A stretch of DNA of 64,000 nt, taken from assembly GCA_025403435.1 (NCBI GenBank), contig JAJQZP010000256.1, positions 806,001 through 870,000 on the forward strand, written 5' to 3'. This DNA comes from Artocarpus heterophyllus. Lineage: Eukaryota > Streptophyta > Magnoliopsida > Rosales > Moraceae. Shown here one piece after another: positions 1 through 54,836 of the stretch. How positions within the stretch are numbered: the first letter of the stretch is position 1; the number at the start of each line of letters is the position of its first letter. The translations under genes and the position numbers were made by a program. The notes below the pieces were generated by a model that did not search any database, was not told the DNA's origin, and saw nothing but the letters and a program-made list of their open reading frames with translations.

Positions 1-2857
1 CGGGTGTTACCCTTCCTTTCTTGTAATGAATGCTAATTTGGACAATGGATTCATATAAACGTCAATGCCTTGAGTGACCGTATATAAGGCGCAAGTTGTG
101 ATGCACATCTTTTAACATGCGTAAATGTACAAACTAGAAAATAATTTAAATTATTGTTGATGTTATGTTTTCATTATAGAAATAGAAAATGTCGTTGAAA
201 GGTAGTGGTTGCCTTCACTTTGGGTCATAATAATTTTTTGTATATTGTTTTCAAAATAGGGCTAATTGCAGATGTTTGTGAGTTTTAGTCGTTTTAACGA
301 AGAGTATTTTCATTGAACTGTACTAAAAAGATAGTCAAAATTAAAAACAAAGATTATATTTAAAAACAATCAAAAAACACAATACAACTTCATACAGAAA
401 CTATGAAATGGATCTATGTGTAAAAGTGTTTGCATCTTTTAAGCTTAATTTACATGTGATTTGTTGTAATTGAAGATGGATGATATAGACAAATCTGTTT
501 GATCAAAACAATCTGTACAAATATTTGGCATGGAAAAAATAGGATTTGCGAGGAAATTGAATAGCATGTAGACTGATATGTTATTATATATGTTTATGAT
601 AGGAGCCAAATCCTTGCATATATCGCCTTCTTATGGTGTGTATATGGTAGGTCAAAATTAACATTAGTAAGTTCTTGTTTGATACTAATAATGTTTCAAA
701 GATCTTACAAGTTCAGAACAATTTCATGAATGTTAATTATATTTGCTTTTTAAACGAACCTTAAACGGGAAACAAAAACTGCATTGGCCTAACATATTGA
801 AGATTATTGATGATTTGTCCTCACTGGAGAAATCTGATTTTTGAGGGAAGAATTGAGAAAGTTCTGCAACTTCGACCAAGTTTGAATTTTTGGCAGTTCA
901 ATTCTGCACTCGCATTTTTTTTTTTTTTATACCACCGATATATTTTTTTATAATGTTTACAAGCTTCATAACGTTCTATAATTGTTTATATCTTTTATAC
1001 AATATAATTTTCATTCTGCTTAATTTTATACGGTATAATTTTCATACTACATAATTCTTATATTGCATAACTTTTGTACAGCTTAATTTCTATGTCGTAT
1101 AGTTTTCATATTTTTTGTATAGTATTTTTCTTATATTGTATCTCATAAAGTATTATTCTTATATCACATTTTCATTTCAAAATCTATTGCTACATATTCT
1201 GCAACAAGACTTCAGCTCATCATTCCCTTTTTCATTATATAACTTTCTTCTTCATATCATTAAATACTTAATTCGTACTTTGCTTAGGATTATGACATGA
1301 TTTTAATTTAATAGACCCATATTTATAAAAAAACATTTATGAAAAGTGTCTTTATTTACATTTTTGACCTTATATTTAAAAATAACAAATTAAGAATTTC
1401 ATCTATATCTTTGAATTGCACTGCTTTTATATCAATAACGGCTTTTGGCTTATTTAACCAAACAAGTTCAAAAGTTCTTCTAAAATCAAAAAGCATTTTT
1501 TCATGCACTATTCAAACCCTAATTAAAAGCCCTAACTTATGTTTTTCTTTTTTTACAGTTTAAAAACAAAAGTACAAGCTATCCCAAACAGGTCCTTATT
1601 CTTATGGGATTTGTCATAAAAAAATTAGATTTAATCACTAATCTTTGTGACACTTACATTGCCTTTAAGGCACTTAACAAAATTTTGAGCACAGCTTTTA
1701 GGGTACAAATTTTGTATATAAATTGTTTATAGTAACTCTTAAAAAATGACATAGTATGCAATCAGAAATTTTTGGGTGTTATATTATAAGGCAGCAAAAA
1801 AGTTTTCTTTTTTTTTCTCTTTTTTTTTTTTTATGGAAAGGCGAGAGTTTTGTTACTTCTTCTCTCTTTGTATTTGCTTTCTCTAGGGCTGGAATATTTG
1901 CGATGTTGGTTTTTTTTTTTTATTTGAAAAGTGAGAAAATTATTTAAGACAATTTACCTAATAATGCTTTTTCGAAATAAGAAACGTTATGTGCTGATCG
2001 TTATTACACCTTTTCAACCTATTGTATATTCCAGTACTATTTTTAAAATTTATTCTTCAATAAAATAATATAAAACTCTCAATATTATAATACCAACAAA
2101 AAATAATCTGTAAAATATTACAGCTTTTATACTCAATTTTGATTAAATATCCGGCATATAGATAACTTATATTTTAATCAAATAAAATTTTGTGGCAATA
2201 ACTATCCACGATTACGAGTGATTTTCTTTCCAAGTTAACTCTTCATTCAATCCAAGATATAAATTTTAAAAAAAAAAAGGAGGGAAAAATAGGCCTCATT
2301 TCGATTATTTACCTTAATGGTCAAAAGAAAAGGCATAAAAAATACTAAAAAATTACTATAAACTCATTTATTTCAATACTCAAATTACAATTTAAATTAT
2401 TTTATTACAATATTTTTTTCTCATAAAAATTTAAACCAAACGGTCATATATTCAAAGCAACAAAACAAAAAATATATATGGAAAAAAACTCTTAGGCCCA
2501 GTCATTATTTCTTTCTCTTTCTCCTTTCCGGTTTAATTCCACTCCATTTTCTTTCAATTATCAAATGACAATTCCACCCACAACAACATACTCCCAACTC
2601 GCTGGCAAACCATGTAATAAAACAAACACGATAACCCCATTTACGTATTTTCACAAAAAGAATAACTTTCCAAGTCGCGTCGGTCGTGTACGGTTTGGAG
2701 TTCCTCCTAGGCCCAACCAAGAACCTCTGAAAGGGAAATCTCAAAAAAATAATTTCATTTCCCCGTCTCGAACAAGAATCGAAAAGTCCTCAATAGATCC
2801 ATTTTTCTCTCAATTTAATTCCTCCAAAAGAAAAGAAAATCACAATTTTATCTAAAA
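1..2857. other. AT-rich intergenic region
   Basis: I see no supportable gene here. The stretch is AT-rich with many T and A homopolymers, and its open frames are short and low-complexity. About 2385-2450 there is sequence like one arm of the foldback repeat described at 12.9 and 54.9 kb (ATTTAAATTATTTT, then CTCATAAAAATTTAAACC). The last few hundred bases are probably promoter and 5' leader of the receptor gene that starts at 2908. Confidence 0.7.
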
Positions 2858-2888
2858 CTCAGATCTGAGCCGAATCCTCAGATCTGAG
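2858..2888. repeat. Two identical 12-bp palindromes in the 5' leader
   Basis: The perfect palindrome CTCAGATCTGAG occurs at 2858-2869 and again at 2877-2888, separated by seven bases. It lies 20-50 bases upstream of the receptor ATG, so it is probably in the 5' UTR or core promoter. No function is known to me. Confidence 0.8.
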
Positions 2889-2907
2889 AAAATCGAAGCT
2901 TTCAACC

Positions 2908-4230
2908 ATGACGATCTCCGCCCGATTCCTCTTCCTCATCGGCTCGATTTACATGGCATTCTCCTTCTGTTTTGCGGAAATCCGATCCAGCGAGATTAGA
3001 GACGATGATCGGGCGATTATCCCCTTGGACGAGTTCGGATTCACGCACAGAGGTCGCCTCGAGCTCAACGTCTCGTCGGTCTCGCTCTCGCCGGAGAATT
3101 CCGATTCCGACCTGTCCAACATCGGTTTCTTCCTCTGCACCAGGGAATCTTGGATCCACGCCTTTCAGCAGCTCGAGGATCGGGAGATCGACTGCGCGCT
3201 GAAGTCGGACATGGTGAAGAAGGTCGTCACCTTCGGCTCGCTCGGCAAGGCCCTAAACGAGAAGAGGATTGATGTCGTGTACAACGAGACCGACGCGGAT
3301 CAGTACACGCTTCTCTTCGCGAATTGCATCCCCGGGGTGAAGGTCTCCATGCATGTCCGATCGGCGATGTATAATCTCGACGGGAAGAACAACGTCCGCG
3401 ATTACCTCTCTGCCGGCAAAACTGTCCTGCCTAGGGTTTACTTCTTCTTCTCTTTGATCTACTTCGCCCTCGCCGGCCTCTGGATTTACGTGCTTTACAA
3501 GAAACGCCTCACGATTTTCGGAATCCATTTCTTCATGCTCGCCGTCGTGATCCTCAAGGCGCTGAACCTCCTCTGCGAGGCAGAGGACAAGTCGTACATC
3601 AAGCGCACCGGAAGCGCCCATGGCTGGGATGTCTTGTTTTACATCTTCAGCTTCTTGAAAGGAATCACGCTCTTCACCTTGATCGTCTTGATCGGCACCG
3701 GCTGGTCCTTCTTGAAGCCGTTCTTGCAGGACAGGGAAAAGAAGGTCTTGATGATTGTAATTCCTCTTCAGGTCGTGGCTAATATCGCTCAGGTTGTGAT
3801 TGACGAGAGTGGTCCCTACGGACACGACTGGTTCACGTGGAAACAGATCTTCTTGCTCGTTGATGTCATCTGCTGCTGCGCTGTGCTGTTCCCGATCGTT
3901 TGGTCGATCAAGAACCTCCGTGAGGCGGCGAAGACCGACGGAAAGGCCGCCGTTAACTTGATGAAGCTGACGCTCTTCAGGCAGTATTACATTGTGGTCA
4001 TCTGTTACGTTTACTTTACCCGCGTTGTTTTCTTCGCCCTGGAGACCATCACCTCGTATCGATACCTCTGGACTAGCGTGGTCGCCTCTGAGCTGGCCAC
4101 GCTAGCTTTTTACGTTTTTACGGGATACAAGTTCAAGCCCGAGGCGCACAATCCTTACTTTGTGATCGATGACGAGGAAGAAGAGGCTGCAGCCGAAGCG
4201 TTGAAGCTTGAGGACGAGTTCGAATTGTGA
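2908..4230 (+). CDS. CAND7: Lung seven-transmembrane receptor family protein (GPR107 / CAND6-CAND7 type)
   Basis: This is an intronless gene for a 440-residue membrane protein. Residues 1-23 look like a signal peptide. A luminal or extracellular domain follows to about residue 165, including the motif YTLLFANC shared by the family. Seven hydrophobic helices then run from about 178 to 410; the first begins near VLPRVYFFFSLIYFAL and the third near VLFYIFSFLKGITLF. The C-terminus is a very acidic tail (DDEEEEAAAEALKLEDEFEL). Length and order match plant GPR107-like proteins (Pfam Lung_7-TM_R), which in animals act in Golgi and endosomal trafficking and in Arabidopsis are listed as candidate G-protein-coupled receptors. 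The ATG at 2908 is directly followed by the signal peptide. Two degraded relatives lie 3-5 kb downstream. The family call is firm; the choice between CAND6 and CAND7 is not. Confidence 0.93.
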   Translation: MTISARFLFLIGSIYMAFSFCFAEIRSSEIRDDDRAIIPLDEFGFTHRGRLELNVSSVSLSPENSDSDLSNIGFFLCTRESWIHAFQQLEDREIDCALKSDMVKKVVTFGSLGKALNEKRIDVVYNETDADQYTLLFANCIPGVKVSMHVRSAMYNLDGKNNVRDYLSAGKTVLPRVYFFFSLIYFALAGLWIYVLYKKRLTIFGIHFFMLAVVILKALNLLCEAEDKSYIKRTGSAHGWDVLFYIFSFLKGITLFTLIVLIGTGWSFLKPFLQDREKKVLMIVIPLQVVANIAQVVIDESGPYGHDWFTWKQIFLLVDVICCCAVLFPIVWSIKNLREAAKTDGKAAVNLMKLTLFRQYYIVVICYVYFTRVVFFALETITSYRYLWTSVVASELATLAFYVFTGYKFKPEAHNPYFVIDDEEEEAAAEALKLEDEFEL

Positions 4231-7200
4231 TTTGCGTCGGAGAAGACGGTGCAGCCCCTGAAATTGGGGCTGGCGAGGTAGATTTTCCACAATCATCAAC
4301 GGGTTGATTTTGATCCGAATCTTGCAGGCATAATTGATTTAGATTTGTGCTAGGGCTTCTTTATTATTATGTTGACGTTACCTTGCCTGTTAGTTTTTGA
4401 GTTAGTAGGACAATTCCATGTGCTTGTTACAAATCTATGAATTAGATACCCTGTATTGCTCTCTGCGAATTGGATTGTATGTGTAAGTAGATAATAATTC
4501 GCATTCATTTTTTGGGATAAAGGTAAGCTTTTTATCTGTTTGTTGACTTAGACTTAAGACCTTTCATAACAGAGCATATTTGCCAGTTTTGTCAGCTTTC
4601 ATTTGACGCATTGGGAGTAGTTATTCTGGGTAGAACCTAAATGGCTAATGCACAGAACAATTTAAATATACATTAACCTGCATCATGGGAGTGATTGTGA
4701 TGATCAATATGCAAGAGCAGAAGAAGTCATGTATGCCAGGCTCATTTAGAATTTTCTGCTAGAAATGTGGATTTTTGTCTAGCTAAAAGAACATTTACCG
4801 GGGGTTTGAAAGAACAATTGAAACTAAAAATGTTGGTTTGAAAACTGTAGCTTGTGAGAGTTTTTCACTTTAGTAACTTTTTGCTTTTAATGTAGCTGTT
4901 GAGAGTTTACATTGTTTCCAACATGCCAAACAACCCATTATTGAGTTAAATAACTTTCTTAATTGGTCAGAATATGTGTGCAGCAGCTCACTGATCTCTT
5001 TGCACTTTGAGTGTTTTTATTTATTTATTTATTTTTTTTTTAGAGTGCGAGTAAAGGATTGGAGATTTATGAATAGCAAAATAGTGGTTTTTATTTATTT
5101 ATTAATTTTTTATTGCTGTGTAATATCTATCATTATTATTCTTTTATTTTTTCAACTTTACCTAACAGCTTGTGCGGAGCGCCAATGGTGTGGCATACTG
5201 GTTAGTTGGTGTTGAATGCTTAAAGAAAATAATGGCCTGTTCATTTTTAAGCCTGAACTTAAAAGTTAAAGGGTGTTTTGCAAGTCGGTTAGAATTAATA
5301 TGTAAAACTCTCAGCAGCTACAATAAAAAACAAAAAATAGCTACAATGTAAAGCTTTCACATGCTGTAGTTTTTGAACCAAAATTTTTAGTTTCAATTGG
5401 TTATCTTGAAACAAGAATCATACATAACTTGTCAACATCTGATTCCAAGCAGGAGCTTACTTGTTGCTAAGAACTTGGCGTGTAAAACTAGAGTCAAGAT
5501 TAATTTCATATGGACCTATTATCCTATTTTTCTTTCTTTAGCATTGAATTTTCATATTGTTTGCCGCTGTGCTGGATTAGCATGTTTATACGATGAATTG
5601 GATGTGAAGTACTTGGTAAACGGGTATCCAAAAACATGCCATCGATGTCTCTTAATTATTTAATGTTAATCCGAATGCGTCATATGTACATATTTTCTTT
5701 TCGTATTTTTCATTTTAGATAAAGTTTGATGCTTAGAAAATTAGCAGTGCACATTACTATTTTCGACCTTAGAGTCTCCTGCAAAATTAGCTAGCTGATA
5801 TAGTGATTCTAGGTATTCTCAAACAAAATTTTTTGTGATGTTTAGATTGGCATTTCGATTTGAAAGCACGGTAGCAATTCAATTTTGAAAGAGAAAACAC
5901 TATAACAAAATTTTTTTGAATTGATAAACCAAACGTCATACGTTGTTATGTAGCATCATTCTCAAGTCGATACAATCTATTCATCAGAGAAAACATTCCG
6001 CTTCTGCTTGTTGTATTTTCTTAACGCCAGCCTTTGTATTCATGTGCTCTATGAGAAACGACCCTCCCTTTCTTTTCTTTCTTTCTTTTTCTATGTTTTG
6101 TTTTTGTCTGCTCTGCCTTAAAATTGCTGCTGCACTGGGGGTTAAAAACCATTTAGAGAACAGGAGTTTGGAAGCGACGGTACCACAGAAACAAAATCCT
6201 CTCAAGATATGAAAAGAATTAAAAAAAAAAAAAAAGAACAGAAAGTAGTAGACATTGATATTTTAGAGTGGTGTACTCTTAACCTGAGTTTTACTGTGAG
6301 AGAAGATAAGGCAGCAGGAGCGTGATTGAGCAATTAGGGTTTTCTAGTGGCCTTTTGTAGTCTCTTTGTGCCCTTTTAAGAAAATCATTTATTCAAGAAA
6401 TACTTCTTTTATTCTAGGTTTGCGCTCAAGCTTATCAACTAATCATAGAGGTGATCCATATCCACGGCTTAAATTTAAATAAAAGAATCTTCTAAATGTT
6501 TTTTCGTGACGCTGAGAACTTGATCATTATTTGATTCTATTAATCTCAACTTTCTGATAACCCCTTTTTTTGACTTGAGTTATAGTGTGTTAGACAACAT
6601 TGTGTTTGAATTGTTCTCGTATACTAAAGTGTTTTAAATCAAAATAGTTCAGACCATTGTTGTCAAATGTACGGATAGTCTTCTATGACGCCAAGAAGAC
6701 ACAAGACGGGAGACTTGAGACGTGAGACACACAGCAGAAGTCTTCGGACTTGACCAACTCGGCAACTGTTTGTACGCAATTATGTTGAGGGATTGGTCAT
6801 ATGGCAGCGCCATATATCATGGTAGGATTGCGAGTGCTTGACTGCAGACGAAGAAAACACGTTTGGCAATATTCTTTGACAAGTTCATGTACAAATTAAC
6901 ATACAATCCAAACTGCATCAGAGTCATATTAATTGATGAGCGGATCTTTTAAAAATATTGACAAATAAATAAATCTAAGCAACCATTCTGCCAAATGCAA
7001 TGGAACAAAATGTAAGTATACGTACTAATGTTTACTTCACCGAAAGCCACCAAGAGAGGGAACCAGTAAAATTTTATTGGCTTAAACACCAGGTCCTAAA
7101 TATTCATTCTATATGGAGACTAGGTGGAAAAGGAAAGTGAGAAAACTGACTAGTTGTATGTTTCTTGATTTTCTTCCTAAATACGCGTCTTATGCTTGAG

Positions 7201-8250: not shown

Positions 8251-9349
8251 TTATAAAAAGTCTTGAGAAAGTGAAGTTTTTCCAATTAACTTTCTAGTAC
8301 ACTCCATCCATACCAAGGAAACCATGGCCTCCACCCCTTTTGCCATCCTCATCTAGCTATCCATGAGCACTACACTCTTCTCTTCGCCAATTGCGTTGAT
8401 GGAATGAAGGTCTCCATGATCGTCGAATGATCGATGTTCAATCTTGCTGGACACGGAGACTTTGGCGGCCGTAACTATCTCTCTGCCGGGGAAAAACCTC
8501 TCCCTAGAGTCTGCTTCCTCTTCTTCTCCGCCTATTTTGCTCTCACCTTGCTTTGGACTCATCTCTTGCTTATCAACAAGAAACGACATGCCGTTTCCGG
8601 TGTCCATTTCTTGATCCTCGCCGTGCTAATCCTTAAGGCCTTAACACTGCTGTGCGAGGCAGAGAAGTTTTCATACATAAAACTCCATGGTTATTTCCTC
8701 GTACACCGCTTTAAGGTTGTTTTCTATGTTCACAGGTCCTTAACAGAAAGCATTGTGTTCGTCTTCGCCGTGTTGGTAAGCACTAATATTATCGGATATT
8801 GGTCATTCTTGAGACCTTTTTCCTCACCGGAAAACGTAAAGATGATGTGTTTTTTGTCATAAGTTCTCTTCAAATCATCAGAACTATCGCCAAAGTATTC
8901 GCTGATGAATCGGGGCCTGTCGGAGACTATACGTTCACTTGGAAGGCGGTTTTCCTGGTGGGAGACTTGATTTGCTGCTTTTCATTGCTCACCATGAACG
9001 AATGGTCGCTTAAGGAGTTCTTGCGATCACAAGATCAATTGATCATGATCAATATTTCTCCCAAGTTATTGGAAAAGGCGAAGCTGTACTTGGCCGTGGT
9101 TAAGAGCTACGTTTTCTTAACTCGTGCTGTGTTGTTTGCGTCGGATAGTACGATGATCATGATCTCGTACAAGCATGTTTGGATCACCATCGTGGTTTCG
9201 GAGTTTGCCACTTTTGCTTTCTATGCGTTTATGGGCTTCACTTTCCTGCCTGGTCAGGCCAACAAATTATATCACTACTCTTTGCAGAATGTTAATGAGA
9301 AAGTGGAAAAGGGTGAAGTTGAACCGCTAACAATAAAGATGGTGAAATG
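8251..9349 (+). pseudogene. Lung 7TM receptor pseudogene (frameshifted, N-domain deleted)
   Basis: The copy begins with a TATA-like TTATAAAAAG at 8251 and an ATG at 8324 that encodes MASTPFAILI, then hits TAG at 8354-8356 where the 7.4-kb copy reads TGG. The sequence then jumps to the end of the luminal domain (HYTLLFANC, about 8368-8394), so roughly 110 codons of that domain are deleted. Another in-frame TGA follows just before 8434. Helices 1-3 read in one frame (8434 to about 8850), and the rest (SSLQIIRTIAKVFADESGP to the end at 9349) reads in another, which places a frameshift near 8840-8860. Residues such as KALTLLCEAEKFSYIK and DESGPVGDYTFTWK match the intact gene at 2908. Like the parent it has no introns. 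Two nonsense codons, a deletion and a frameshift make it a pseudogene. Confidence 0.92.
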
Positions 9350-9373
9350 ATGGAGATTATGGCATAATTAAAC

Positions 9374-21963: not shown

Positions 21964-21978
21964 GTTTGGCACTCATAA
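21964..21978. repeat. Left part of a MITE split by the LTR element, ending in TSD CATAA
   Basis: GTTTGGCACT plus CATAA is the left terminus of a GTGTTTG-family foldback repeat. Its other part starts at 30164. Joining the two at CATAA restores a repeat of about 150 bp whose right end, GTGCCAAGCAAG at 30293-30304, mirrors the left. The LTR element therefore landed inside an older MITE. Confidence 0.6.
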
Positions 21979-23943
21979 TGTAACGCCCCTATATGGGGGT
22001 TAACAGTTTTTAATGAGATAAAATAAAAAATAAATAATAAAAGTAAAACCTTAAAAATAAAATTTGCCCGGGACTTAAATGAAAACTCTCAACTCAAAAA
22101 TAAAAATATAAACGACAATTAAACCACAGTTTTAATGTAGCACTTTAAATTTAATAATATAAACTGTTGTCATCATCATTTTATCCCTCAACACATTGTA
22201 ATACAGTCACAGAAAGTAACAATTGATGCTTACATTATCATGAAAAACATTCTCAACAATTGAAGCAGTCCCAATGTAATATAGCTACATCGCTTCCTCA
22301 ACTATATTTCTCGTAGCCACCTCACACTTAGTGAGTCCTGAAAAGATATAAACATAAGGGTATGAGCAACACTATGCTCAGTAGAGAAAGCCATTACTCA
22401 CCTCTATCATTACCACATTAAAATCTGCATGGTTAGTAAGTCACATCATATTTCAGATTATGAGGTTTATTATGATCACATCTTATGGATACCGTAGATA
22501 ATCATTACCAAGTGTCATAATTACACATTTATACAAATATTACCAATCATCATTGTTCCTAGGTATCCATGTTAAATTGAGTATCACTCAACTCATCGAA
22601 ACCCAAATGGGCGCACTTGATCACCCTATAAACATTCCAAGGGTGTTCCGGTGAGGGGACATCAAGCCCCGAGTCCTCACCAAATCGATTCCTGTACAGT
22701 GTGTTCTGGGACTTTCAACCCAAGGAAGCGTCATCGCCTTCCCCCTACTTTACCTTTTAGGGTATTCATGCCCAAGGACGTAACCGTCGCCCTTTTCATG
22801 TCTCACAATTTCTCTATATTAAATCATTATTAATAGAGTTAATTTTCCTAACCATGCTTCTCAATTTATAACATGTGTCAATTCATTATGTTCCTCGCCG
22901 TACAATACAAGACGAGTCCATGTCATAGTTTCATATGTGATACACATATAATATCAGTTCAACATAGATATATATATATTGCGGCAAAACAATCAATTTT
23001 AATTCTATAAAAACCTCACAAAAGATGAGTAATAGAATCCCTACCTTTCAAGCTTATCAACAGTCTCTTAATCCTGGAATCAATTAACGTTAGCTCCATA
23101 CTCCCTTGATCCTAAGGCGTGCATAAGGACAATTAAAACTAAAGCACAACATACAACTACATTCATAAAATTTATTTTAATTTAATCTTAGAATTTCAAG
23201 AAATAACCACTGCCCATAGAGGTATTATAAAGTTTAACAATATAAATTTTCTGTCTAGGGCATATACACTTAGACTTCATACATATGCTCCAAAATAGCA
23301 ACAAACATATACTTAGGTTTAAGAACGCAAATTTGAATAATCCTTTAGTATAAAAGAAAATTTATAAATGAAAGACTAAATTTGTTCATAAGATTCTAAC
23401 CTCAGATTATGGTTAGTTGGAAGCTTGAAATGGCTTCAAAACAGGTTCCTTTAGTTCGGTATGACTGAAATTCTTGCTCAAATGGAGGTGATGGTGGCTG
23501 ATTTTTATGGCTGCCTTGAAGAAGTTCTCTAAGTATTTTGCTTCAGCAAAGAAATGAGAAGAAGAGTGTGGGAACCGTGGAAGAGAAAGGAAGAAAAGAT
23601 GAAGTCTTTGAAGAGAAGTGATAGAAACAATTATAGAGGAGACATGTTGAAGCATGTCACGGAGGAAATAAAGAAAATGAGGGTCAAGAGTAGTTGGAAA
23701 AGATATCCTTATGTCTCATCTAAAGACTTTAACACACATATGCCAATATGACATTTTTGAGATTTATTAGAAGTTCTAAGGCTTTTTAGTAATCATACTA
23801 AATAAATATAGGAGAATTTTAGAAAACTTAAAAATAGATAAAAATAAATATTATAAAATAAATTTAAATGAAGCAATTTTTTTTATACATTAAAAATTAA
23901 TTTAATTACCTCAATACCCGTTAGGAGAATAACGGGTGTCACA
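21979..23943 (-). repeat. 3' LTR of the cargo-carrying element (left on the plus strand)
   Basis: This LTR of 1965 bp starts TGTAACGCCCC and ends GGGTGTCACA on the plus strand. It matches the copy at 28200-30163 with about four substitutions and three single-base indels by eye (for example CACTTTAAA versus CACCTTAAA, and GGGTATGAG versus GGGAATGAG). Small frames inside it (22651-22833, 23413-23655, 23554-23751) occur in both LTRs and have no known domain, so I do not call them genes. Confidence 0.95.
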
Positions 23944-23962
23944 GCTCTACCCCCCTTAAAGA
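23944..23962 (-). other. Polypurine tract
   Basis: Read on the minus strand this is TTTAAGGGGGGTAGAGC directly before the LTR start TGTGACACCC. It is the expected plus-strand priming site and sets the element's orientation. Confidence 0.85.
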
Positions 23963-24616
23963 AATTTCGTCCTCGAAATTTCAATTCTAGCAATACTAGT
24001 AAAAATTTTAATTCCATTATGATTCCAATTCCGAGTCTAAACCGTTAATGTTGTTTGTCCTCCAAATTTAAGTTATCGTATCTCCACTCATTTACTTGCA
24101 TAATAAATCTTACTCCTAAATCCCTCAATAAGAGTATTTCTGACAAGTTTCAACTTATAACACCGTATAATAGTCTAAGAATCTGATCAGGCATACATAT
24201 TGACCATATCATGATTCCAGTCCTTCATTGTCCATGGACTGTGATTTACAATCACATTTAAGGAGATTGCCAGAGAAATTTTATATACTTCATCTTTAGG
24301 TTCCTTTTCCTTTTTGAGTAAGGAAAAGTCAAATATATTTGATTTCATACCTCAACTAATAAACTAGAATATAATCATAAAACATATATCACAAACACTT
24401 TTATTCAAAACTATACATTAAACTTACTCATAGAGATATTAAACGGAATCTCAGAGTTGCAAACATACCCGGCATATTTTTCATTAAACAGCTATCCTCA
24501 TGACACAAACATTCAATCCAAATAATATACTCATATTTCATATGGAATATCCCCATAACTGACTCTGGTACTTCCACATAATATTAACAGAATATTACAC
24601 ATTACAAACATAATAC

Positions 24617-24763
24617 GGATACGTTTCGAGAGTACAAGGCACTCCGTATACCAGCTATCCATATCATGCATGCTTAGAGGATACAAAAACATCGATAAAC
24701 AAAAGATCGGACCTTAAGAAGGATGCGTTTCGAGAGCATCAAGTACTCCGTATCCAGCCATCC
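24617..24763 (-). repeat. Paired 43-44 bp hairpin repeats downstream of the LOG-like ORF
   Basis: Two related units lie exactly 104 bases apart, at 24617-24660 and 24721-24763. Each begins GGATRCGTTTCGAGAG on the plus strand and ends with CGTATCC or CGTATACC, then AGC or AGCC and ATCC. Within each unit GGATRCG can pair with CGTATCC, giving a short stem-loop. They lie 135-280 bases beyond the LOG-like stop codon in the sense direction, so they would fall in its 3' UTR. Confidence 0.75.
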
Positions 24764-24898
24764 CGGCATTAGGCTCAATGAATCTAAAAGATTGAACAAC
24801 AACGTACCACAAGAAACACAGAATACAAGGCAAACGGTTATTCGTAACACACGAAATACGGACACACATGCCTACATGCCAAAGATAAAACAAAAAGA

Positions 24899-25549
24899 TT
24901 ACAGATGGAGATTCAAATCAATTGGCCGCTCCCGGCTTTCCCTTTCCCATTCAAGCTTGGATGTTGCAGTGTCGGATTCTGGATGTATGATTTGCATTTT
25001 ATCTATCAATTCCTCAGCTGTTGAAGCAGTGACAAAGATTTGTCTCTCCGATTCTGTAGTGATGTTTTCTTCCACAGCGTAATCTAGAAATTTCAAAAGA
25101 CCGTCATAAAAACCCTTTACGTTCAGCAGTCCCAAAGGTTTGGAATAAAAGCCCAACAATTGCCCACAAGCAACTATAAATATTTCCTCAAGAGTGCCTA
25201 GACCACCAGGTAATGCTATAAAAGCATCAGAATTATAGATTATGTCTTTAAAATTTTTAGGGATACTCCTGACTCCTTCTCCCTTACCTATGGCTTCCTT
25301 ACAAAGGTTTCCTTCAACTGGAATATGAGGCCAAATTCTTACATCAGTAGCGTCGCTAGACCTAGCTGCTAGTGCCATATTTACCATCATTTTTATACTA
25401 CCACCCCCATAGATTATGTTAATCTTCTTGTGTGCTAGGACTTGCCCTAAGTGATTTGCAGCTTCTAAATAAGCTTTATCTTTTCCAAGGCTGGAACCAC
25501 AAAAGACACAGACATTCTTTATTTTCTTCGTGGACTGGGAGGTAGACAT
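24899..25549 (-). CDS. LOG-like (lysine decarboxylase-like fold) protein carried by the LTR element
   Basis: This is an intact 216-residue ORF, the usual length of plant LOG proteins. It has VCVFCGSS (residues 13-20), IIYGGGSI (45-52) and PGGLGTLEE (114-122), which together identify the LOG family. LOG enzymes release active cytokinin bases from their riboside monophosphates in the cytosol. Two regions depart from the family. GGGSI is followed by KMMV, where GLMG is expected. Residues 95-103 read SIPKNFKDI where active plant LOGs have a DMHxRKAEM-type motif, so the conserved arginine appears to be asparagine. Activity is therefore doubtful. I start at ATG 25549; the frame stays open to a GTG at 25588. 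Plant LOG genes have several introns and this copy has none, which suggests capture through an RNA intermediate. It lies in the element's sense direction, downstream of the zinc-finger ORF. Confidence 0.88.
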   Translation of the reverse strand: MSTSQSTKKIKNVCVFCGSSLGKDKAYLEAANHLGQVLAHKKINIIYGGGSIKMMVNMALAARSSDATDVRIWPHIPVEGNLCKEAIGKGEGVRSIPKNFKDIIYNSDAFIALPGGLGTLEEIFIVACGQLLGFYSKPLGLLNVKGFYDGLLKFLDYAVEENITTESERQIFVTASTAEELIDKMQIIHPESDTATSKLEWERESRERPIDLNLHL

Positions 25550-26191
25550 ATTTGGTTTATAGAAGTGGTTGCTTAATGTCTGCTCCACTTAGACTTCGGG
25601 TTCTACATGAGATTTTAAAGATGAGAAATATACAAAAAGGGCTAAAGAGATAGACGAGTAGGTAATGAAAAGGTAATCCAAAGATTTAAACAAAATCTTG
25701 TGCGGATAAGAAAGTAAGATAAGGTGATTGATAGTTTACAGAAAATCTGATTCACTTTTTGAAAAAGATTAGACTCTAATTGTATAACTTTTGACAATTG
25801 AGAACAATTTGACAGAAGACCCTCATGACACAACTGTAGACTTTTTGACAAATATACACCAAGTCTAGAAATTTAATATAAACGACAAATATTGTAGAAC
25901 TTTTGAAATTTGAGACACAATCTTGAAATATCTGGATAAGCTTTTCAAAATTCAAACATATTACTGTACCGTATGTAACGTGTATGATAAGATAATATAT
26001 TTTATTATATATATATTTAAGAAAATCATAAATTAAATAAGATATTAACACTTACTGTATCAATCTAATAATCACAATTATTTCAAACACAAAAGCAAAT
26101 ATTCTGAGTAAAAGAAAAACACAAACTGTTGAACATCAGCTAAAACTGCTTCAAATAAGTAAAGACTAAATAACCTTTATAGAGCGATGAC
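25550..26191 (-). other. Spacer between the two cargo ORFs
   Basis: This is 640 bases of AT-rich sequence between the zinc-finger and LOG-like ORFs. Short frames here (for example 25776-26051) show no domain. A TATA-like CTATAAAGG on the minus strand lies just after the first ORF and could serve a second promoter, but this is weak. Confidence 0.5.
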
Positions 26192-26713
26192 TTATTCCCT
26201 ATCCAGTTTTCTTATGGCTTGACAAACAGGATCTAGAAATACCATATTCCTGAGGCGTTGTCTTTCTGTATAAAATTTAGGCCAGAGTTTAAAAATAGCT
26301 CCTTGAACATATCCACTAGGGTGACCGTGGAGAGGAGGATGGATGCTATCCAAGTTCTCCTTTGAAAGTCCATCCCTACAAAACCTTATTTTATCCTCTC
26401 TATTCGTAGACATATAACCAGGTGAAGTACATTTACCGTTACAATTTTGTCTTCCACATTTGTTACAAGTGATCACGATGGCACGAGCTCTTCTTTTCAT
26501 TGCACTACGACTGGTACCTGTTCCTGGTAAACCGACATCTTGACTAAAGTCACTCGGACGGATTTTCCCCTCTATTAACATTCTCACATCACAAGGGATA
26601 CCAAAACGCATAAGAATCCACAACCGAGTAATTCTAGCCTTGTATTTCTTTCTGAGAATCTTTTGGGAGAGTGATGGGAAATACTTTCTCAGGTGTTGGT
26701 ACTTTGGGTCCAT
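26192..26713 (-). CDS. Arginine-rich zinc-finger protein of the LTR element, possibly related to viral NABP
   Basis: This is an intact 173-residue ORF with an ATG start. The N-terminal 30 residues are basic. A hydrophobic segment (LWILMRFGIPCDVRMLI, 31-47) follows, then GTGTSRS and the basic run KRRARA (73-78). Next comes a CX2CX4CX3C cluster at C83, C86, C91 and C95. The C-terminal 70 residues have no recognised motif. The order of hydrophobic helix, GTS, arginine-rich block and cysteine cluster resembles, from memory, the cysteine-rich nucleic-acid-binding protein of carlaviruses (Viral_NABP family), which is shorter and has wider cysteine spacing. It could instead be a divergent nucleocapsid-like Gag remnant, since it sits where gag normally lies. 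Nucleic-acid binding is a fair inference; the viral origin is a hypothesis. Confidence 0.8.
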   Translation of the reverse strand: MDPKYQHLRKYFPSLSQKILRKKYKARITRLWILMRFGIPCDVRMLIEGKIRPSDFSQDVGLPGTGTSRSAMKRRARAIVITCNKCGRQNCNGKCTSPGYMSTNREDKIRFCRDGLSKENLDSIHPPLHGHPSGYVQGAIFKLWPKFYTERQRLRNMVFLDPVCQAIRKLDRE

Positions 26714-26904
26714 GATGAGATGAAAGAAAAGTAAATAGAAAGGAAAAATTAAGATAGTAAATTGCAGAATCCTAGAATTCCTTCTTCTTTTAGAGAAAAA
26801 GAAGAATTTTTAATGAAAAAGAAGAGGATTTGCGATTTAGAGAGAAAATAACAAATTAAGAGAGAAAAAGTGAACTCGGAGAAATAAGCTCCTATGCACA
26901 GTAA

Positions 26905-26962
26905 ACGTATATATAAACAATGATTAAACCACTGTATATGACACGTATAGAGACCACGTGGG
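26905..26962 (-). promoter_or_regulatory. Candidate internal promoter upstream of the zinc-finger ORF
   Basis: On the minus strand a G-box-like CCCACGTGG (about 26952-26960) is followed about 35 bases later by TTTATATATACG (26905-26916), a good TATA box. The TATA box lies about 190 bases upstream of the ATG at 26713, and the leader between them is CT-rich. The layout would suit a transcript that starts inside the element. No transcript evidence is available here. Confidence 0.4.
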
Positions 26963-28180
26963 AGAGACAGTGTGAATCAAACTGATTTAAGATTTGAACT
27001 AGGCCCAAATGTTCTAAGTTGAAAATGGTCAGGTTGTTTCGGGCCTTAACACATTTAGAACAAGTTAAATAACAAACATAAAATTGAAAACCAATTCGTA
27101 TGAATCTTAAACCCAATTCAAAGCCCACTATAGATAAAGTTAACTATAAACAACAAATCTAATTTAACGACAACAAGGATCTTCCTGAATGATATTTAAA
27201 ATCATTTCATAACAACACAATCTTCCAACAACTCAAATGATTTTGTTTTAATCAAAACCTTATTGAACAATGCATACACCCATCTGTTATTCATAATACT
27301 TAACATCTATCAATGGATTCATCATCATTACTACCAAGGGTTTAGAATGCGACTAACCTTGAAATCAATACGATTTACGTCTTCCAACATAGACCATATC
27401 AATGAGCAAAGACACTAGATGTTACTACTTAAGAACATCTACAATCCCCACAATTCTACTTATACAATATATAATTTCCTCATATAACAAAACCTTAGGT
27501 AACCAAAAGATTCACTGATACACTTAAATACAATGTACGTAACAAAATATTTCAATTTTGAGATTCATGCATTCTAGACTTTACACAGTCTCAACAGACC
27601 AAAAGTCTAACATTTATCTCTCTCAAGATTCAATACCATGATTCCCAACTTATATCATATTCCTCAAATAAATAGAACTTTTAAGAAAAGATATTGACAC
27701 TTATGTGCTCCATCGAATCCACACATAATCATTACTTAGGTTTGAATCAATTACGAAAAATTTGGCATATCTATGTCAAACTTTAAAATCAATAAATCAA
27801 GCCTTATATTTCTTATTGTTTTTCACGAGACAAAAGGCTCTTAAATCCTCGTATCTATACGAATTTCTCATCGTTTATACGAATTAAATATGCTTATAGA
27901 TCCAAATATTATACGAATCTCTCATAAGCATTCTACTTATAAACTCATTCCATATAATTATCATTCCCTTATAACTATTAATACTTTCCTTCTATATAAT
28001 TATTGTACTCATATAATTATTGATATTTTCATTCTATGGCCTTTCCATGTTACATCCTTCTAGACTGTATAAATCAATGTGAAGGTTCATTTTGATGATG
28101 ACAATGAAAATTCAACTTCAAAACCATCTCAAAAATATTTTTTAAAGTGGTGCTACACTCCCTAGGTTAACCGAACCTAG
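26963..28180 (-). other. Non-coding leader region of the LTR element
   Basis: About 1.2 kb lies between the PBS and the candidate internal promoter, where gag would normally begin. I find no frame with a recognisable gag or protease domain. The sequence is AT-rich, with repeated TATACGAAT and ATATAATTATT words near 27840-28030. Confidence 0.6.
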
Positions 28181-28192
28181 GCTCTGATACCA
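28181..28192 (-). other. Primer-binding site for tRNA-iMet
   Basis: On the minus strand the sequence is TGGTATCAGAGC, the standard complement of the 3' end of initiator methionine tRNA, seven bases inside the LTR that starts at 28200. This fixes the element's orientation as minus. Confidence 0.95.
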
Positions 28193-28199
28193 AAAATTC

Positions 28200-30163
28200 T
28201 GTAACGCCCCTATATGGGGGTTAACAGTTTTTAATGAGATAAAATAAAAATAAATAATAAAAGTAAAACCTTAAAAATAAAATTTGCCCGGGACTTAAAT
28301 GAAAACTCTCAACTCAAAAATAAAAATATAAACGACAATTAAACCACAGTTTTAATGTAGCACCTTAAATTTAATAATATAAACTGTTGTCATCATCATT
28401 TTATCCCTCAACACATTGTAATACAGTCACAGAAAGTAACAATTGATGCTTACATTATCATGAAAAACATTCTCAACAATTGAAGCAGTCCCAATGTAAT
28501 ATAGCTACATCACGTCCTCAACTATATTTCTCGTAGCCACCTCACACTTAGTGAGTCCTGAAAAGATATAAACATAAGGGAATGAGCAACACTATGCTCA
28601 GTAGAGAAAGCCATTACTCACCTCTATCATTACCACATTAAAATCTGCATGGTTAGTAAGTCACATCATATTTCAGATTATGAGGTTTATTATGATCACA
28701 TCTTATGGATACCGTAGATAATCATTACCAAGTGTCATAATTACACATTTATACAAATATTACCAATCATCATTGTTCCTAGGTATCCATGTTAAATTGA
28801 GTATCACTCAACTCATCGAAACCCAAATGGGCGCACTTGATCACCCTATAAACATTCCAAGGGTGTTCCGGTGAGGGGACATCAAGCCCCGAGTCCTCAC
28901 CAAATCGATTCCTGTACAGTGTGTTCTGGGACTTTCAACCCAAGGAAGCGTCATCGCCTTCCCCCTACTTTACCTTTTAGGGTATTCATGCCCAAGGACG
29001 TAACCGTCGCCCTTTTCATGTCTCACAATTTCTCTATATTAAATCATTATTAATAGAGTTAATTTTCCTAACCATGCTTCTCAATTTATAACATGTGTCA
29101 ATTCATTATGTTCCTCGCCGTACAATACAAGACGAGTCCATGTCATAGTTTCATATGTGATACACATATAATATCAGTTCAACATAGATATATATATATT
29201 GCGGCAAAACAATCAATTTTAATTCTATAAAAACCTCACAAAAGATGAGTAATAGAATCCCTACCTTTCAAGCTTATCAACAGTCTCTTAATCCTGGAAT
29301 CAATTAACGTTAGCTCCATACTCCCTTGATCCTAAGGCGTGCATAAGGACAATTAAAACTAAAGCACAACATACAACTACATTCATAAAATTTATTTTAA
29401 TTTAATCTTAGAATTTCAAGAAATAACCACTGCCCATAGAGGTATTATAAAGTTTAACAATATAAATTTTCTGTCTAGGGCATATACACTTAGACTTCAT
29501 ACATATGCTCCAAAATAGCAACAAACATATACTTAGGTTTAAGAACGCAAATTTGAATAATCCTTTAGTATAAAAGAAAATTTATAAATGAAAGACTAAA
29601 TTTGTTCATAAGATTCTAACCTCAGATTATGGTTAGTTGGAAGCTTGAAATGGCTTCAAAACAGGTTCCTTTAGTTCGGTATGACTGAAATTCTTGCTCA
29701 AATGGAGGTGATGGTGGCTGATTTTTATGGCTGCCTTGAAGAAGTTCTCTAAGTATTTTGCTTCAGCAAAGAAATGAGAAGAAGAGTGTGGGAACCGTGG
29801 AAGAGAAAGGAAGAAAAGATGAAGTCTTTGAAGAGAAGTGATAGAAACAATTATAGAGGAGACATGTTGAAGCATGTCACGGAGGAAATAAAGAAAATGA
29901 GGGTCAAGAGTAGTTGGAAAAGATATCCTTATGTCTCATCTAAAGACTTTAACACACATAATGCCAATATGACATTTTTGAGATTTATTAGAAGTTCTAA
30001 GGCTTTTTAGTAATCATACTAAATAAATATAGGAGAATTTTAGAAAACTTAAAAATAGATAAAAATAAATATTATAAAATAAATTTAAATGAAGCAATTT
30101 TTTTATACATTAAAAATTAATTTAATTACCTCAATACCCGTTAGGAGAATAACGGGTGTCACA
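28200..30163 (-). repeat. 5' LTR of the cargo-carrying element (right on the plus strand)
   Basis: This LTR of 1964 bp is almost identical to 21979-23943. It ends GGGTGTCACA and is followed by the target-site duplication CATAA at 30164-30168. In the element's sense direction this is the promoter-bearing LTR. Confidence 0.95.
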
Positions 30164-30305
30164 CATAATTAGAGCTAATGTTGATTTAAAACATTATAGT
30201 TATTGAAAGTTTTATACTTATTTTTTCACTTTATATTATAGCTGTTAAGAATTTTTTATTGTGAACGTTTAGAATTGTGGTTTCAAAAGTAGGTGCCAAG
30301 CAAGC
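30164..30305. repeat. Right part of the MITE split by the LTR element
   Basis: It begins with the duplicated CATAA and carries the family words GAAAGTTTTATACTTATT and CACTTTATATTATAGCTG. It ends GTGGTTTCAAAAGTAGGTGC followed by CAAGCAAG, which mirrors the left terminus TTTGGCACTCATAA at 21965-21978. Confidence 0.6.
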
Positions 30306-32487: not shown

Positions 32488-34348
32488 GTTATGCGATGGA
32501 AGGAAGCTCGAAGGAGAGGCTTTGGGCTGGGCTTCCGACAGATTGCGACGGCTTTGTTTTGAAGGTTCTTCGTCTTTTTTCTTTTTTCTTATTTGCTTAA
32601 GTTAAGATGAACGGGACATTTTAGTAATTGCAATCTCCTCGCATGATGTGCACGTGCATTTTTTCAAAGAGTTTTGAACGAATTTTTGTAAAAAGGCTTA
32701 ATTGTTAAGGCTTTAAAAGTTTAAAGGTTAATATATTAAAATTTAAAAAAATGATTAAAATATTAACTATTAAAGAGTTGAAGAACCATCTGATTTAATT
32801 TTTTTTTCCTTTGAAACCCCAATTGGTTAACATTCTCCAAATCAAGCTAAATTCATCAAATTGTGGGGGGTCGAAATCTTGTTTTTGTGGTTGGTTCTCA
32901 CTTATTACTGTTGGAAGGAAAAAAAAAATATATTGTTAATTTAATCGGGACCAAAAGAGAGAAAAATTGGTTGCTTACTGCCCCTTTTGGTTTTGGTCCC
33001 CCCACATCCTCACACAAAACCAAAAAGTGGGCCCGCATCACGTTTCCCAATGACAAATTTTTTTTTCTTTCTTATTCGTTTTGTTGGCAAATGCTTTGAC
33101 AAATGTAGTTTTAACGGAAGGAAAAAAAAATGAAACGTGAAGTGATGTTCTTGACGGAGACTGTCAGTCAACCTAGTCAAAAGAAAAAACTTGCCCCGAG
33201 TCCATGAAACCCTGCCACTATCATCACAAAGTCACGACCAATTGAGCACTCTATTCGTGTTGAAAACAGTTTTACTTGATAGTATAATACATCATGTTTA
33301 TCTGTCAGAATGATTTATGGTTATTTATGTTAAAAATTTATAAAATATAATATTAAATAAATTTTAATTATAAATTCAATAGTTAAAAAAATTTAATAGT
33401 TAATATATTTATATTTTATCAATAAAATAAAATTACTTTTTTTATCATAAAAATTGTCTTTTTCATGAATTTTTAAGGAGGAACTGAAAAACTTACCATT
33501 AGATGTCTGTATTTTTGTTGTTAAATCTATAAAAAAATAATTTTGATGAAATCTAATAGTTTAAAAATGTATAATACTAATAGACTAGCCTATTTTGAAG
33601 ACTAAAGTTTAAACTTTTTTTGTGGTTTAAACTATATTTATTATAATGTTTTTTTATAAAATTTAAGCTAAAAAAAATTAAACCATAGAAAAAAAAAAGG
33701 TTGAAATTGTTCTCTCAAACCGACTGTAAATGTAAGGTGAAGAAGTGCATTTTTTTGGGCCCAAAAAGTCAAACCGGACACAACGTCTTGACACTGTTAA
33801 GATTCTTGACGTGAAGAAAACGTCAAAAAAAAGAAAGAGTGGAGTGGGTGTGGGCCTCCTGATCTTGGGTGGTGTGGTATAATACTGTACTGTTTTTTTT
33901 AATAATTTTGTTTTTTAAAATTTTTGTCTGTATTCCTCTTGAGGAACGAATGTTGGAAGCTAAGGAAGCAAAAGCAAAAACGCATGGCTAAAAATGGCGG
34001 CACCGCCTCTCCATAACCACACACACCCCCCCCCCCCAAAAAAAAAAAAAACTCAATTACTTCAGAAAATTCAAACTCAAAACTCAACACAGAGAGAGAA
34101 AAAAAAAAAGAAATAAGAGGAGAGAGAGAGTGTTATGGTGGTTTTGGAGTGAGAAAGAAGCCAAACTTGTCAAGGAGTGTGGAATAGCTGGCGTGGGTTG
34201 TAATTAAGGCTGTGTTTTTATTTTTTTTTTATTTGGTTTCTTTTTTGCCCTTTTGAAGTTTTTTTGTTTTGGGGTTGGATTGGGTAGTGGGAAAGGTAGC
34301 TTTTTTTTTTGGGTTATTATTAAAGTTTTTTTTTTTGGGTTGATTTTC

Positions 34349-36170
34349 ATGGGGACAAGAATTGGGTTTGTGGCTTCAGAGAAGGAAGCAGTGGAAAAAG
34401 AGTGCTGCGATGTTGGGTTGGATTTGAAGATGCAAACGACAAGCAACAGCAAGAAAATGATGATGATAAATACAACCCATCATCATCATCATTTTCGTGA
34501 TCATCATTATGGTAATCATCATGATGACGATGACGATGAGCAGCCTACTCTTCTCAGCGGTAGTGGAGGTTTTGGTGGTGAAGAACATGGTTGTGAAGGT
34601 AGTGACGCTTGTAGTGGACCCTTTCTCTGCAACAACAACAACAACCAAGTTGTTGTTGCTTCCATGAGTGATATATACGATGTTGTCGGTGCTACTACTG
34701 ATTCTGCCTCATTCCTCATGCCATTGCCTTGCTCTGAAACCTTAACGTCCCACAATTCCTCTGGTAAATCTTTTTTAATAAAAAAATGTCTTATTTCTTT
34801 TTTTTTTAATATTATTACTTTGAGTTTGAATTTTTTTTTTTTTTTTGTTTCAGGAGTTATGGTGAATGCAAATGTGAGAGTGCCTAATTTCACAGCAGCT
34901 CAAAGGCAAGAGCTTGAGAGACAGACCGTGATTTACAAATACATGATGGCCTCTCTCCCTGTCCCTCCTCAATTACTCATACCCATTTCCAAGACCTCTC
35001 CAAATTTGCCTCTCTTGCACCACTCCAATCGTAAAAATTCTTTTCTTGTATTACCCACCTGTTATTTTTCAATTTTTTTTTGGGTTTAGAATAAAAAAAT
35101 TATTTTTATTTTTATTTTTTGAAGGGTCTAAAGGGTGTTTGGAGTTGGGGTTGCTGCCAAATAGCTCGGACACAGAACCATGGAGGTGTAGAAGAACAGA
35201 TGGAAAGAAATGGAGATGCTCAAGGAACGTTGTCCCTGACCAGAAGTACTGCGAACGACACTCTCACAAGAGTCGTCCCCGTTCAAGAAAGCCTGTGGAA
35301 CAACATCAACAACTACATTCCCACTTCTTCACCAACACCTACACCAACAACACTAGCTTTCCATATCCAAAGTCGTCTAATTTCCGAGGCCAAAGAGAAA
35401 AACGACAATTACCTCCATATTCCTCCACATCACATGACCAAACCAGGTAAACATTTATTATTAATTAATTCCTTTTGCTTGTTCCATTCATTGTCTTTTG
35501 ATTATTGATGATGTGGGTCTTTCTTGTTTTCTGTGTTTCTTGTGTAAATTGATGTGCCATTTTTGTCGTTGATTGTGTGAATTTTAGGGGCTTCGAGTGG
35601 TTCATGAAAGGTGAAGAAGCTGCCATTTCAAGCCAAGAGTGGCACCAAGTTGTGCACGTCAAATCAAGGACAACAACAGCGGATTTTACAAAGCCACAAA
35701 GTGAAGAAAGAGCCTTTGATTTTTATAATAATAATAACAACCAATCTCAAGGGGGGCTAGATGAGCAGTTTGGCAGCTCATTGATTGAATCCAAATTGGT
35801 ACCTAGCCAGCAAACAAGGCATTTTATTGACGCTTGGTCCATGGCAGAGAGAGACCACAACTACAGTGTCGTTCCTTCAAACGACAAAGTTCTTCCCTAT
35901 TCATCTCTTACCCTGTCAATGCAAGGTGGGAATGGGACTACTGGTGAAGAGAGTACTGAGAATTCCCATATGGGTTTTGGGATTGAAGGAGATTTCTTGT
36001 TCAAGTCTCAATGGATGAGCAATAATGCAGTGTCATGGAATGTTGGGTCAACTTCACCACAACAACAACCTGGTGGGCCCTTGGCTGAAGCCTTGTGCCT
36101 TGGGATGGCTGGTTCCACTAGAACAACAACAACTACTACAACAACAACATCCTCTAGAAGCTCATCTTGA
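34349..36170 (+). CDS. GRF: GROWTH-REGULATING FACTOR (QLQ and WRC domains)
   Basis: Four exons, 34349-34763, 34854-35030, 35125-35446 and 35588-36170, join in frame through GT-AG introns of 90, 94 and 141 bases to give 498 residues. The QLQ domain starts near residue 151 ([20 protein letters not shown]). The WRC domain near 217-258 has CX9CX10CX2H (C219, C229, C240, H243) and a basic nuclear-localisation stretch (TDGKKWRC, then KSRPRSRKP). GRFs are nuclear transcription factors that work with GIF coactivators to drive leaf and meristem cell proliferation. The WRC exon carries a miR396 site. The N-terminal region has His, Asp and Asn runs, and the C-terminus ends in a Thr/Ser tract. I prefer ATG 34349 (MGTRIGFV); an in-frame ATG at 34253 would add 32 residues encoded by T-rich leader. 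Confidence 0.95.
35279..35300 (+). promoter_or_regulatory. miR396 target site in the GRF WRC exon
   Basis: The sequence CGTTCAAGAAAGCCTGTGG with its flanking bases is the conserved GRF site complementary to miR396, with the usual one-base bulge. It lies directly after the codons for HKSRPRSRK, as in other plant GRFs. miR396 pairing would repress this transcript in maturing tissue. Confidence 0.92.
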
Positions 36171-54710: not shown

Positions 54711-54836
54711 TTTTTGTTTTCTTTCGGTTTGTTTGGAAGAGGAGTTGAAGTGAAAGAGAGTGAAAGCGAAGACAAATGGTCAGTTACTTTTTTTAGCTTC
54801 AAAATTCCTTCTTTCGATTCCTTTGTTTTTTTAAGG

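Follow-up and report, generated by a model that had tools for sequence, protein, structure and literature searches.

Some families of non-autonomous plant retrotransposons with long terminal repeats (LTRs), namely terminal-repeat retrotransposons in miniature (TRIM) and large retrotransposon derivatives (LARD), hold long open reading frames (ORFs), and some of these are weakly similar to proteins of transposable elements (PMC2533021; this and the other papers are cited here from excerpts). Extra ORFs of the type found in Grande, RIRE2 and Retand include some that encode nuclear proteins, and their role is thought to be regulatory (PMC7264820, PMC11963269). For antisense extra ORFs, the excerpt of PMC7264820 names no clear similarity except to SMC and transposase-28 domains. 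The cysteine-rich proteins (CRPs) of plant RNA viruses combine a nuclear localisation signal (NLS) with a zinc finger, some of them suppress RNA silencing, and p12 of Chrysanthemum virus B (CVB) is a transcription factor and an inducer of hyperplasia (PMC12172455). Here we describe an LTR retrotransposon in a stretch of 64,000 nucleotides from Artocarpus heterophyllus (contig JAJQZP010000256.1, positions 806,001 to 870,000 of the forward strand), which we call the window. Two genes stand in its interior: ORF-B, apparently related to these viral proteins, and ORF-A, which resembles LOG. The interest of the element lies chiefly in the virus-type protein rather than in cytokinin.

An intact non-autonomous LTR retrotransposon

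The element has near-identical LTRs bounded by TG and CA, a 5-bp target-site duplication (TSD), a primer binding site (PBS), which we take to be of the initiator-tRNA-Met type, and a polypurine tract (PPT), and is thus an LTR retrotransposon (Table 1). The LTRs, the TSD, the PBS, the PPT and the coordinates of the element had been given in a preliminary description made from the sequence alone, and we confirmed them. The interior of 4256 bp holds ORF-A and ORF-B, both intact and both in the sense orientation, as the same description had stated. It had also seen no pol in any frame. Our Pfam scan of the interior in six frames, with stops read as X, agreed and uncovered no hidden gag or pol; the sole matches were LOG domains and weak hits to Carla_C4 and Viral_NABP.

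The LTRs of the window copy differ by 4 substitutions in 1962 aligned bases and by three one-base indels, the stretches used being one base short at one end. If plant DNA gains about 1e-8 substitutions per site each year, these differences date the insertion to roughly 100,000 years ago. The gag-pol coding region that marks an autonomous Ty1/copia or Ty3/gypsy element is missing. The length above 4 kb without gag-pol domains is that of a LARD or other non-autonomous LTR element (size rule in PMC2533021). We conclude that this is an intact, young, non-autonomous LTR retrotransposon. A search for further copies inside the window gave one 43-nt match only, beyond the element ends.

Table 1. Features of the element, in window coordinates
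Feature	Position	Strand	Remark
LTR retrotransposon, whole	21979..30163	-	TG at 21979, CA at 30163
3' LTR (element sense)	21979..23943	-	
5' LTR (element sense)	28200..30163	-	
TSD CATAA, left copy	21974..21978	.	
TSD CATAA, right copy	30164..30168	.	
PBS TGGTATCAGAGC	28181..28192	-	7 nt past the 5' LTR
PPT CTTTAAGGGGGG	about 23950..23961	-	6 nt ahead of the 3' LTR
ORF-B, putative virus-type cysteine-rich nucleic-acid-binding protein	26192..26713	-	173 aa
ORF-A, LOG-like protein (TIGR00730/Lysine_decarbox)	24899..25549	-	216 aa; MHxR motif without Arg
Interior 5' untranslated region (UTR)	26714..28199	-	divergence between copies above that of either ORF
Interior 3' UTR	23944..24898	-	divergence between copies above that of either ORF

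Copies of the family in the host genome

The host genome searched comprises 985 Mb in 334 contigs, of which contig C1 has 23 Mb. A search with ORF-B returned 5813 first-look candidates. The best 150 of these, the window included, were scored; they were full length at 98-100% identity, and 149 were free of stops. The PPT-LTR junction pattern matched 1383 times in reverse and 2464 times in forward orientation, the latter number being overlapping matches in which the G run is counted repeatedly, and controls gave 0 on both. The LTR-PBS junction pattern with any spacer matched 1626 and 1685 times (controls 0). C1 has 62 distinct PPT junctions. It also has 79 listed PBS junctions, in 69 of which the spacer is that of the family or close to it. 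Scaled from the C1 junctions, the family is estimated at about 2,650-2,900 per genome, or some 2,700 copies, an estimate that counts junctions, some of which belong to broken copies. Most of the C1 PPT junctions (57 of 62) pair with an upstream PBS at a distance of 3,982-4,395 nt, while 5 have no partner. These 57 copies, with 3.98-4.40 kb between PBS and PPT, therefore have no space for gag-pol.

Copies were sampled in three ways. The first sample consisted of 20 copies of 8.5 kb each from the 149 other top ORF-B places, and was thus selected by ORF-B score. The interior aligned in 19 of them (18 over positions 1-4257, L043 over 1-4256) at 96.4-98.7% identity; L046 is a rearranged copy. Seven copies had both LTRs complete, six with identical 5-bp TSDs and one (L030) with 4 of 5 bases matching. 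The 14 LTR pairs compared (about 1.8-2.0 kb, some partial) showed 0-12 differences. Since four of these pairs were without any substitution, the family was active recently. With the window added, ORF-B was intact in 21 of 21 sequences and the LOG frame in 20 of 21. The second sample was made up of 20 loci from 40 that had been scored on their 5' DNA and nothing else. It includes a truncated copy adjoining an unrelated open frame (L060) and a rearranged one (L058). For the third sample, 20 copies were fetched from 45 PPT junctions on C1 away from the top-150 ORF-B places. Their LOG region was 86-99.7% identical, and 18 of them had neither stop nor indel in it.

The proposal of a non-autonomous family stands on these copies, which share the ORF pair and in which gag-pol went undetected; the ORFs occurred together in all 8 loci compared from the top ORF-B places, the window included. 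A segmental duplication of the LTR pair without TSD is contradicted by the identical TSDs in six of the seven further complete copies. The TSDs together with the dispersed copies rule out a segmental duplication or a host gene. The suggested autonomous partner with the same PPT-LTR junction did not turn up among the 20 sampled C1 junctions, all 20 of which had the LOG region.

In the remaining 10 PBS junctions listed on C1, the LTR end and the PBS are separated by other spacers. Four such pieces were scanned. Ty3-type gag was encoded in L098 (Retrotrans_gag, 6.8e-13) and L099 (6.3e-8), and the other two gave no Pfam match in the single frame scanned. Ty3-type elements that encode gag, have the same PBS and resemble our family over a short stretch at the LTR end are thus present in the host genome.

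A search of the host genome for other ORF-B families, made with the protein P0009, gave places at 51-53% only, among the best 150 of 5285 candidates. These were taken as the same family, and a separate second ORF-B family was rejected. At L049/L050 (G000 C1:15105379-15115130) and at G000 C1:11394820-11401953, same-strand LTR-PBS matches lie in pairs 6.2 and 6.6 kb apart, which suggests tandem LTR-interior-LTR-interior-LTR arrays from LTR recombination. L040, L041 and L042, perhaps a subfamily, have some 380 additional bp in an LTR, close to its position 780.

The two ORFs and the neighbouring genes

By eye, the ORF-B protein of the window has a KRRAR basic run, a zinc-finger-like CxxCx4Cx3C motif and an NREDKI block. 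Database searches gave 15 relatives at first. The profile of these then matched 855 proteins (E<=0.01), and a list was made of the best 120. The named sources among the 120 were plants, including Populus, Xanthoceras, Acer, Rhamnella, Orobanche and Hibiscus. Relatives from other plants were about 50% identical, mostly near full length. When 110 relatives were aligned and compared with Pfam, 87 matched Carla_C4 and 85 matched Viral_NABP at E<=1e-3 (best 3.7e-8 and 1.1e-8, respectively), and no other Pfam family was matched at this threshold. With expressions that we wrote ourselves, the basic run was found in 103, the CxxC..C..C motif in 108 and the NR[ED]DKI block in 106 of 125 relatives. Because its relatives match Carla_C4 and Viral_NABP and no other Pfam family, ORF-B is, as judged by sequence homology, a relative of the NLS-plus-zinc-finger CRPs, or nucleic-acid-binding proteins (NABPs), of flexi-type plant RNA viruses. 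It belongs there by the profile match via relatives and by the presence of an NLS-like basic run and of zinc-finger cysteines. Its first designation as a zinc-finger gene is thereby corrected. Silencing suppression or nuclear regulation would fit the homology of ORF-B better than a role as substitute nucleocapsid.

ORF-A matched TIGR00730 (E=5.8e-38) and the solved structure of At2g37210 (PDB 2a33; E=2.1e-43 by sequence, E=6.2e-16 by fold). Its structure model had a predicted template modelling score (pTM) of 0.74, with residues 79-86 and 91-95 below 50 in the predicted local distance difference test (pLDDT). The protein has the LOG fold and keeps the PGGxGTxxE motif as PGGLGTLEE. It scored 85.8 bits with the NCBIfam LOG equivalog, below the cut-off of 300, which is intended for prokaryote proteins. 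At the Arg of the MHxR motif, presumably the catalytic Arg of LOG, the window copy and each of the 20 further copies printed have Asn instead. Among the 120 LOG-like relatives listed, most keep the Arg; by eye it is absent in P0016, P0057, P0101 and P0114, it is Lys in four, and it is shifted in P0062. Such relatives are abundant, with Populus frequent among the names of those listed. LOG proteins activate cytokinins. ORF-A keeps the LOG fold without the aligned catalytic Arg, and since this residue is gone, activation of cytokinin by ORF-A is doubtful.

A tree was built from 37 proteins; the branch that holds P0016 and the LOG of the window is 1.29 changes per column long and weakly placed. 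This very long branch and the Asn at the aligned catalytic position weaken the idea that the element alters host cytokinin. Capture of a cytokinin-related gene without introns, which had been proposed as well, is plausible. However, the capture looks old, since the nearest relatives outside P0016 are at most 49% identical (among the 120 listed). In IMG/VR, profiles A1 and A2 found no relatives, and profile A3 found 19 loci, whose LOG matches were distant and partial (25-62%). The LOG-like P0068 and the ORF-B relative P0149 each have a listed longest contig of 8723 nt, a mere hint that the two genes may co-occur in another plant. Many LOG-like proteins of about 217 amino acids (P0019-P0129), from Populus and JGI contigs, have MSER or MSDR replacing MHERKAEM; these may be another transposon-borne LOG family.

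The preliminary description knew of no family with a LOG and zinc-finger pair. We likewise found no published LTR element with a LOG-like, carlavirus-NABP-type or silencing-suppressor gene in titles and abstract openings, a level at which absence from print is not proven. Two papers that mention Carla_C4 give no more than its accession and seem to be surveys of glyoxalases.

Next, we compared the copies for signs of selection. In the first sample, ORF-B had 260/74/820 differences at codon positions 1/2/3, and LOG had 270/296/630. The mean divergence between pairs of copies was 0.0269 for the 5' UTR and 0.0194 for the 3' UTR, as against 0.0126 for the spacer, 0.0105 for ORF-B and 0.0087 for LOG. 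The ratio of nonsynonymous to synonymous differences (pN/pS) was 0.09 for ORF-B and 0.24 for LOG. We set these ratios aside as proof because the copies had been chosen by ORF-B score. In the 5'-picked loci with the window, pN/pS was 0.151 for ORF-B (20 sequences; codon bootstrap 0.071-0.324; 0 of 1000 replicates >=1) and 0.350 for LOG (19 sequences; bootstrap 0.153-0.831). In the junction-picked copies with the window it was 0.444 for LOG (21 sequences; 0.283-0.671; 1 of 1000 >=1). All of these values are sums over pairs of related, non-independent copies, and the bootstrap is over codons only. They suggest purifying selection between copies, strong on ORF-B and moderate on LOG.

Further open frames were seen in the window. 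An intact GOST/CAND6-7 seven-transmembrane protein is encoded at 2869-4230 (+). A shorter frame at 8787-9350 (+) resembles by eye the C-terminal part of GOST/CAND6-7, has no Pfam match and is a possible tandem duplicate or pseudogene. At 34208-36170 (+), a QLQ domain is followed in the next exon-like frame by a block that is WRC-like by eye, probably a growth-regulating factor (GRF) gene. The region 53742-54779 (-) is a single open frame for a glutaredoxin-domain protein with a cysteine-rich C-terminal domain.

Explanations and comparison with known systems

The explanation that we favour, and think somewhat likelier to be right than wrong as a whole, is a non-autonomous family mobilised in trans by Ty3-type elements, with a counter-silencing or regulatory ORF-B and a repurposed LOG. 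The element RNA would be packaged, reverse-transcribed and integrated by Ty3/gypsy proteins of the host, and the helpers would have the same tRNA-Met-type PBS and resemble the family at the LTR end. Like viral CRPs, ORF-B would counter host silencing and so let the element escape it, or it would act in the nucleus on transcription, and element copies retaining ORF-B would leave more copies. The LOG-like protein would have no phosphoribohydrolase activity and be kept for another role, e.g. binding nucleotides or host LOG subunits.

Several observations weigh against this explanation. The gag-bearing L098 and L099 match the family over only 43 and 30 nt, at the LTR end and PBS, with 79-87% identity. 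Of the 12 C1 PBS junctions with the family spacer and no PPT partner, two were fetched, and both were family pieces, which covers 2 of 12. Taken alone, the window ORF-B reached E=0.011 with Viral_NABP and E=0.11 with Carla_C4, under the curated cut-offs of Pfam; its viral link comes through relatives and spans only residues about 63-118. As expressed, the basic motif is missing from 22 and the zinc-finger motif from 17 of the 125 relatives. ORF-B gave a weak structure model (mean pLDDT 72, pTM 0.35), with a better N-terminal helical part, and no significant structural match was found in BFVD or the PDB fold search; solved structures gave nothing under E=0.28, and the PDB fold search gave one match at E=7.2. 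Broken frames occur as well. ORF-B was present in 19 of the 20 5'-picked loci, intact in 14 and with a stop or indel in 5. LOG was present in 18 of these loci: 11 intact at full length, 2 defect-free but partly covered and 5 interrupted by a stop or indel, among them one that is partly covered. In the junction-picked copies LOG was broken in 2 of 20. Finally, 14 of 1000 bootstrap replicates of the 5'-picked LOG set were >=1.

A wider claim is possible, which we think less likely than not. A eudicot-wide lineage of LTR retrotransposons would carry an RNA-virus-type silencing suppressor and a LOG-derived protein as counter-defence. The suppressor gene would have passed between flexi-type viruses and retrotransposons, perhaps from transposon to virus, and its presence would help to explain thousands of copies in a non-autonomous family.

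Other explanations were weighed on the same evidence. In one, which we regard as unlikely, ORF-B as a transcription factor like CVB p12 and LOG through cytokinin would raise meristem proliferation, so that insertions reach the germ line. Cytokinin activation by LOG proteins, which the NCBIfam name also reflects, the Arg retained in most of the listed LOG-like relatives and the hyperplasia induced by the transcription factor p12 (PMC12172455) speak for it, but the Asn at the aligned catalytic position in the window and all 20 further copies printed does not.

ORF-B could also be a substitute nucleocapsid, as the preliminary description had suggested, a basic zinc-finger protein routing the element RNA into helper particles. 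The basic run and CxxCx4Cx3C motif, the conservation of ORF-B in cis with the element and the gag-carrying Ty3 elements in the same genome would suit this role. However, the Pfam matches of its relatives (E<=1e-3) are viral CRP families, not zf-CCHC or gag, and helper gags would already provide a nucleocapsid, which makes this role improbable.

We think it similarly improbable that the likeness to viral CRPs is convergence on a short basic zinc-finger block, ORF-B being an independent plant transposon protein. The matched region is indeed short, the fold matches are weak, and neither the N- nor the C-terminal part matches Pfam. Against this, 85-87 of the 110 members matched the two viral families, Pfam gave no match to any other family, and the top three BFVD matches are all flexivirus small proteins: the 15-kDa protein of Cherry mottle leaf virus (E 0.31) and the RNA silencing suppressors of Helleborus mosaic virus (0.84) and Chrysanthemum virus B (5.0).

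That the ORFs are passive passengers, captured by chance and intact only through the youth of the copies, is very improbable: the dated copies are young (0-12 LTR differences in the 14 pairs) and some ORFs are broken, but the ORFs are less divergent than the UTRs with an excess of third-position differences, pN/pS is below 1 in copies chosen independently of the ORFs, and ORF-B relatives of other plants are about 50% identical, mostly near full length.

Silencing suppression is a measured activity of the virus protein family of ORF-B, so a retrotransposon-borne counter-defence is testable in a standard leaf assay. The relatives of ORF-B, of which hundreds of sequences exist, bear on the origin of the CRPs of carla-, allexi- and mandariviruses, and the family bears on the success of elements without gag-pol.

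Like LARDs and other non-autonomous plant LTR elements, the family has LTRs, PBS and PPT, no recognisable gag-pol and many copies. In contrast to LARDs as the excerpt of PMC2533021 presents them, it has two ORFs with viral-CRP and LOG homology that are apparently under purifying selection between copies. It shares family-wide conserved extra ORFs with Grande, RIRE2 and Retand, but those elements carry gag-pol too (PMC7264820, PMC11963269). The conserved antisense extra ORFs of plant retrotransposons had few recognisable relatives in the excerpt of PMC7264820, whereas both ORFs of our family are in sense and have clear homologues.

The NABP/CRP proteins of carla-, allexi- and mandariviruses have, like ORF-B, a basic NLS-like run with a zinc-finger motif after it and belong to Carla_C4 and Viral_NABP; unlike them, ORF-B is chromosomal, lies in an LTR retrotransposon and has N-terminal helical and C-terminal regions without Pfam match (PMC12172455). 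Insect retrotransposons with a viral-type superfamily 1 (SF1) helicase also carry an RNA-virus-type gene with a proposed anti-silencing role, although gene, host and element type differ and our family is without gag-pol (PMC6338049). Finally, VANC of the VANDAL DNA transposons is a transposon-encoded protein that counters host silencing, as we propose for ORF-B. It is a different protein from a DNA transposon, and its anti-silencing activity is reported, whereas that of ORF-B is one we infer (PMC13317346).

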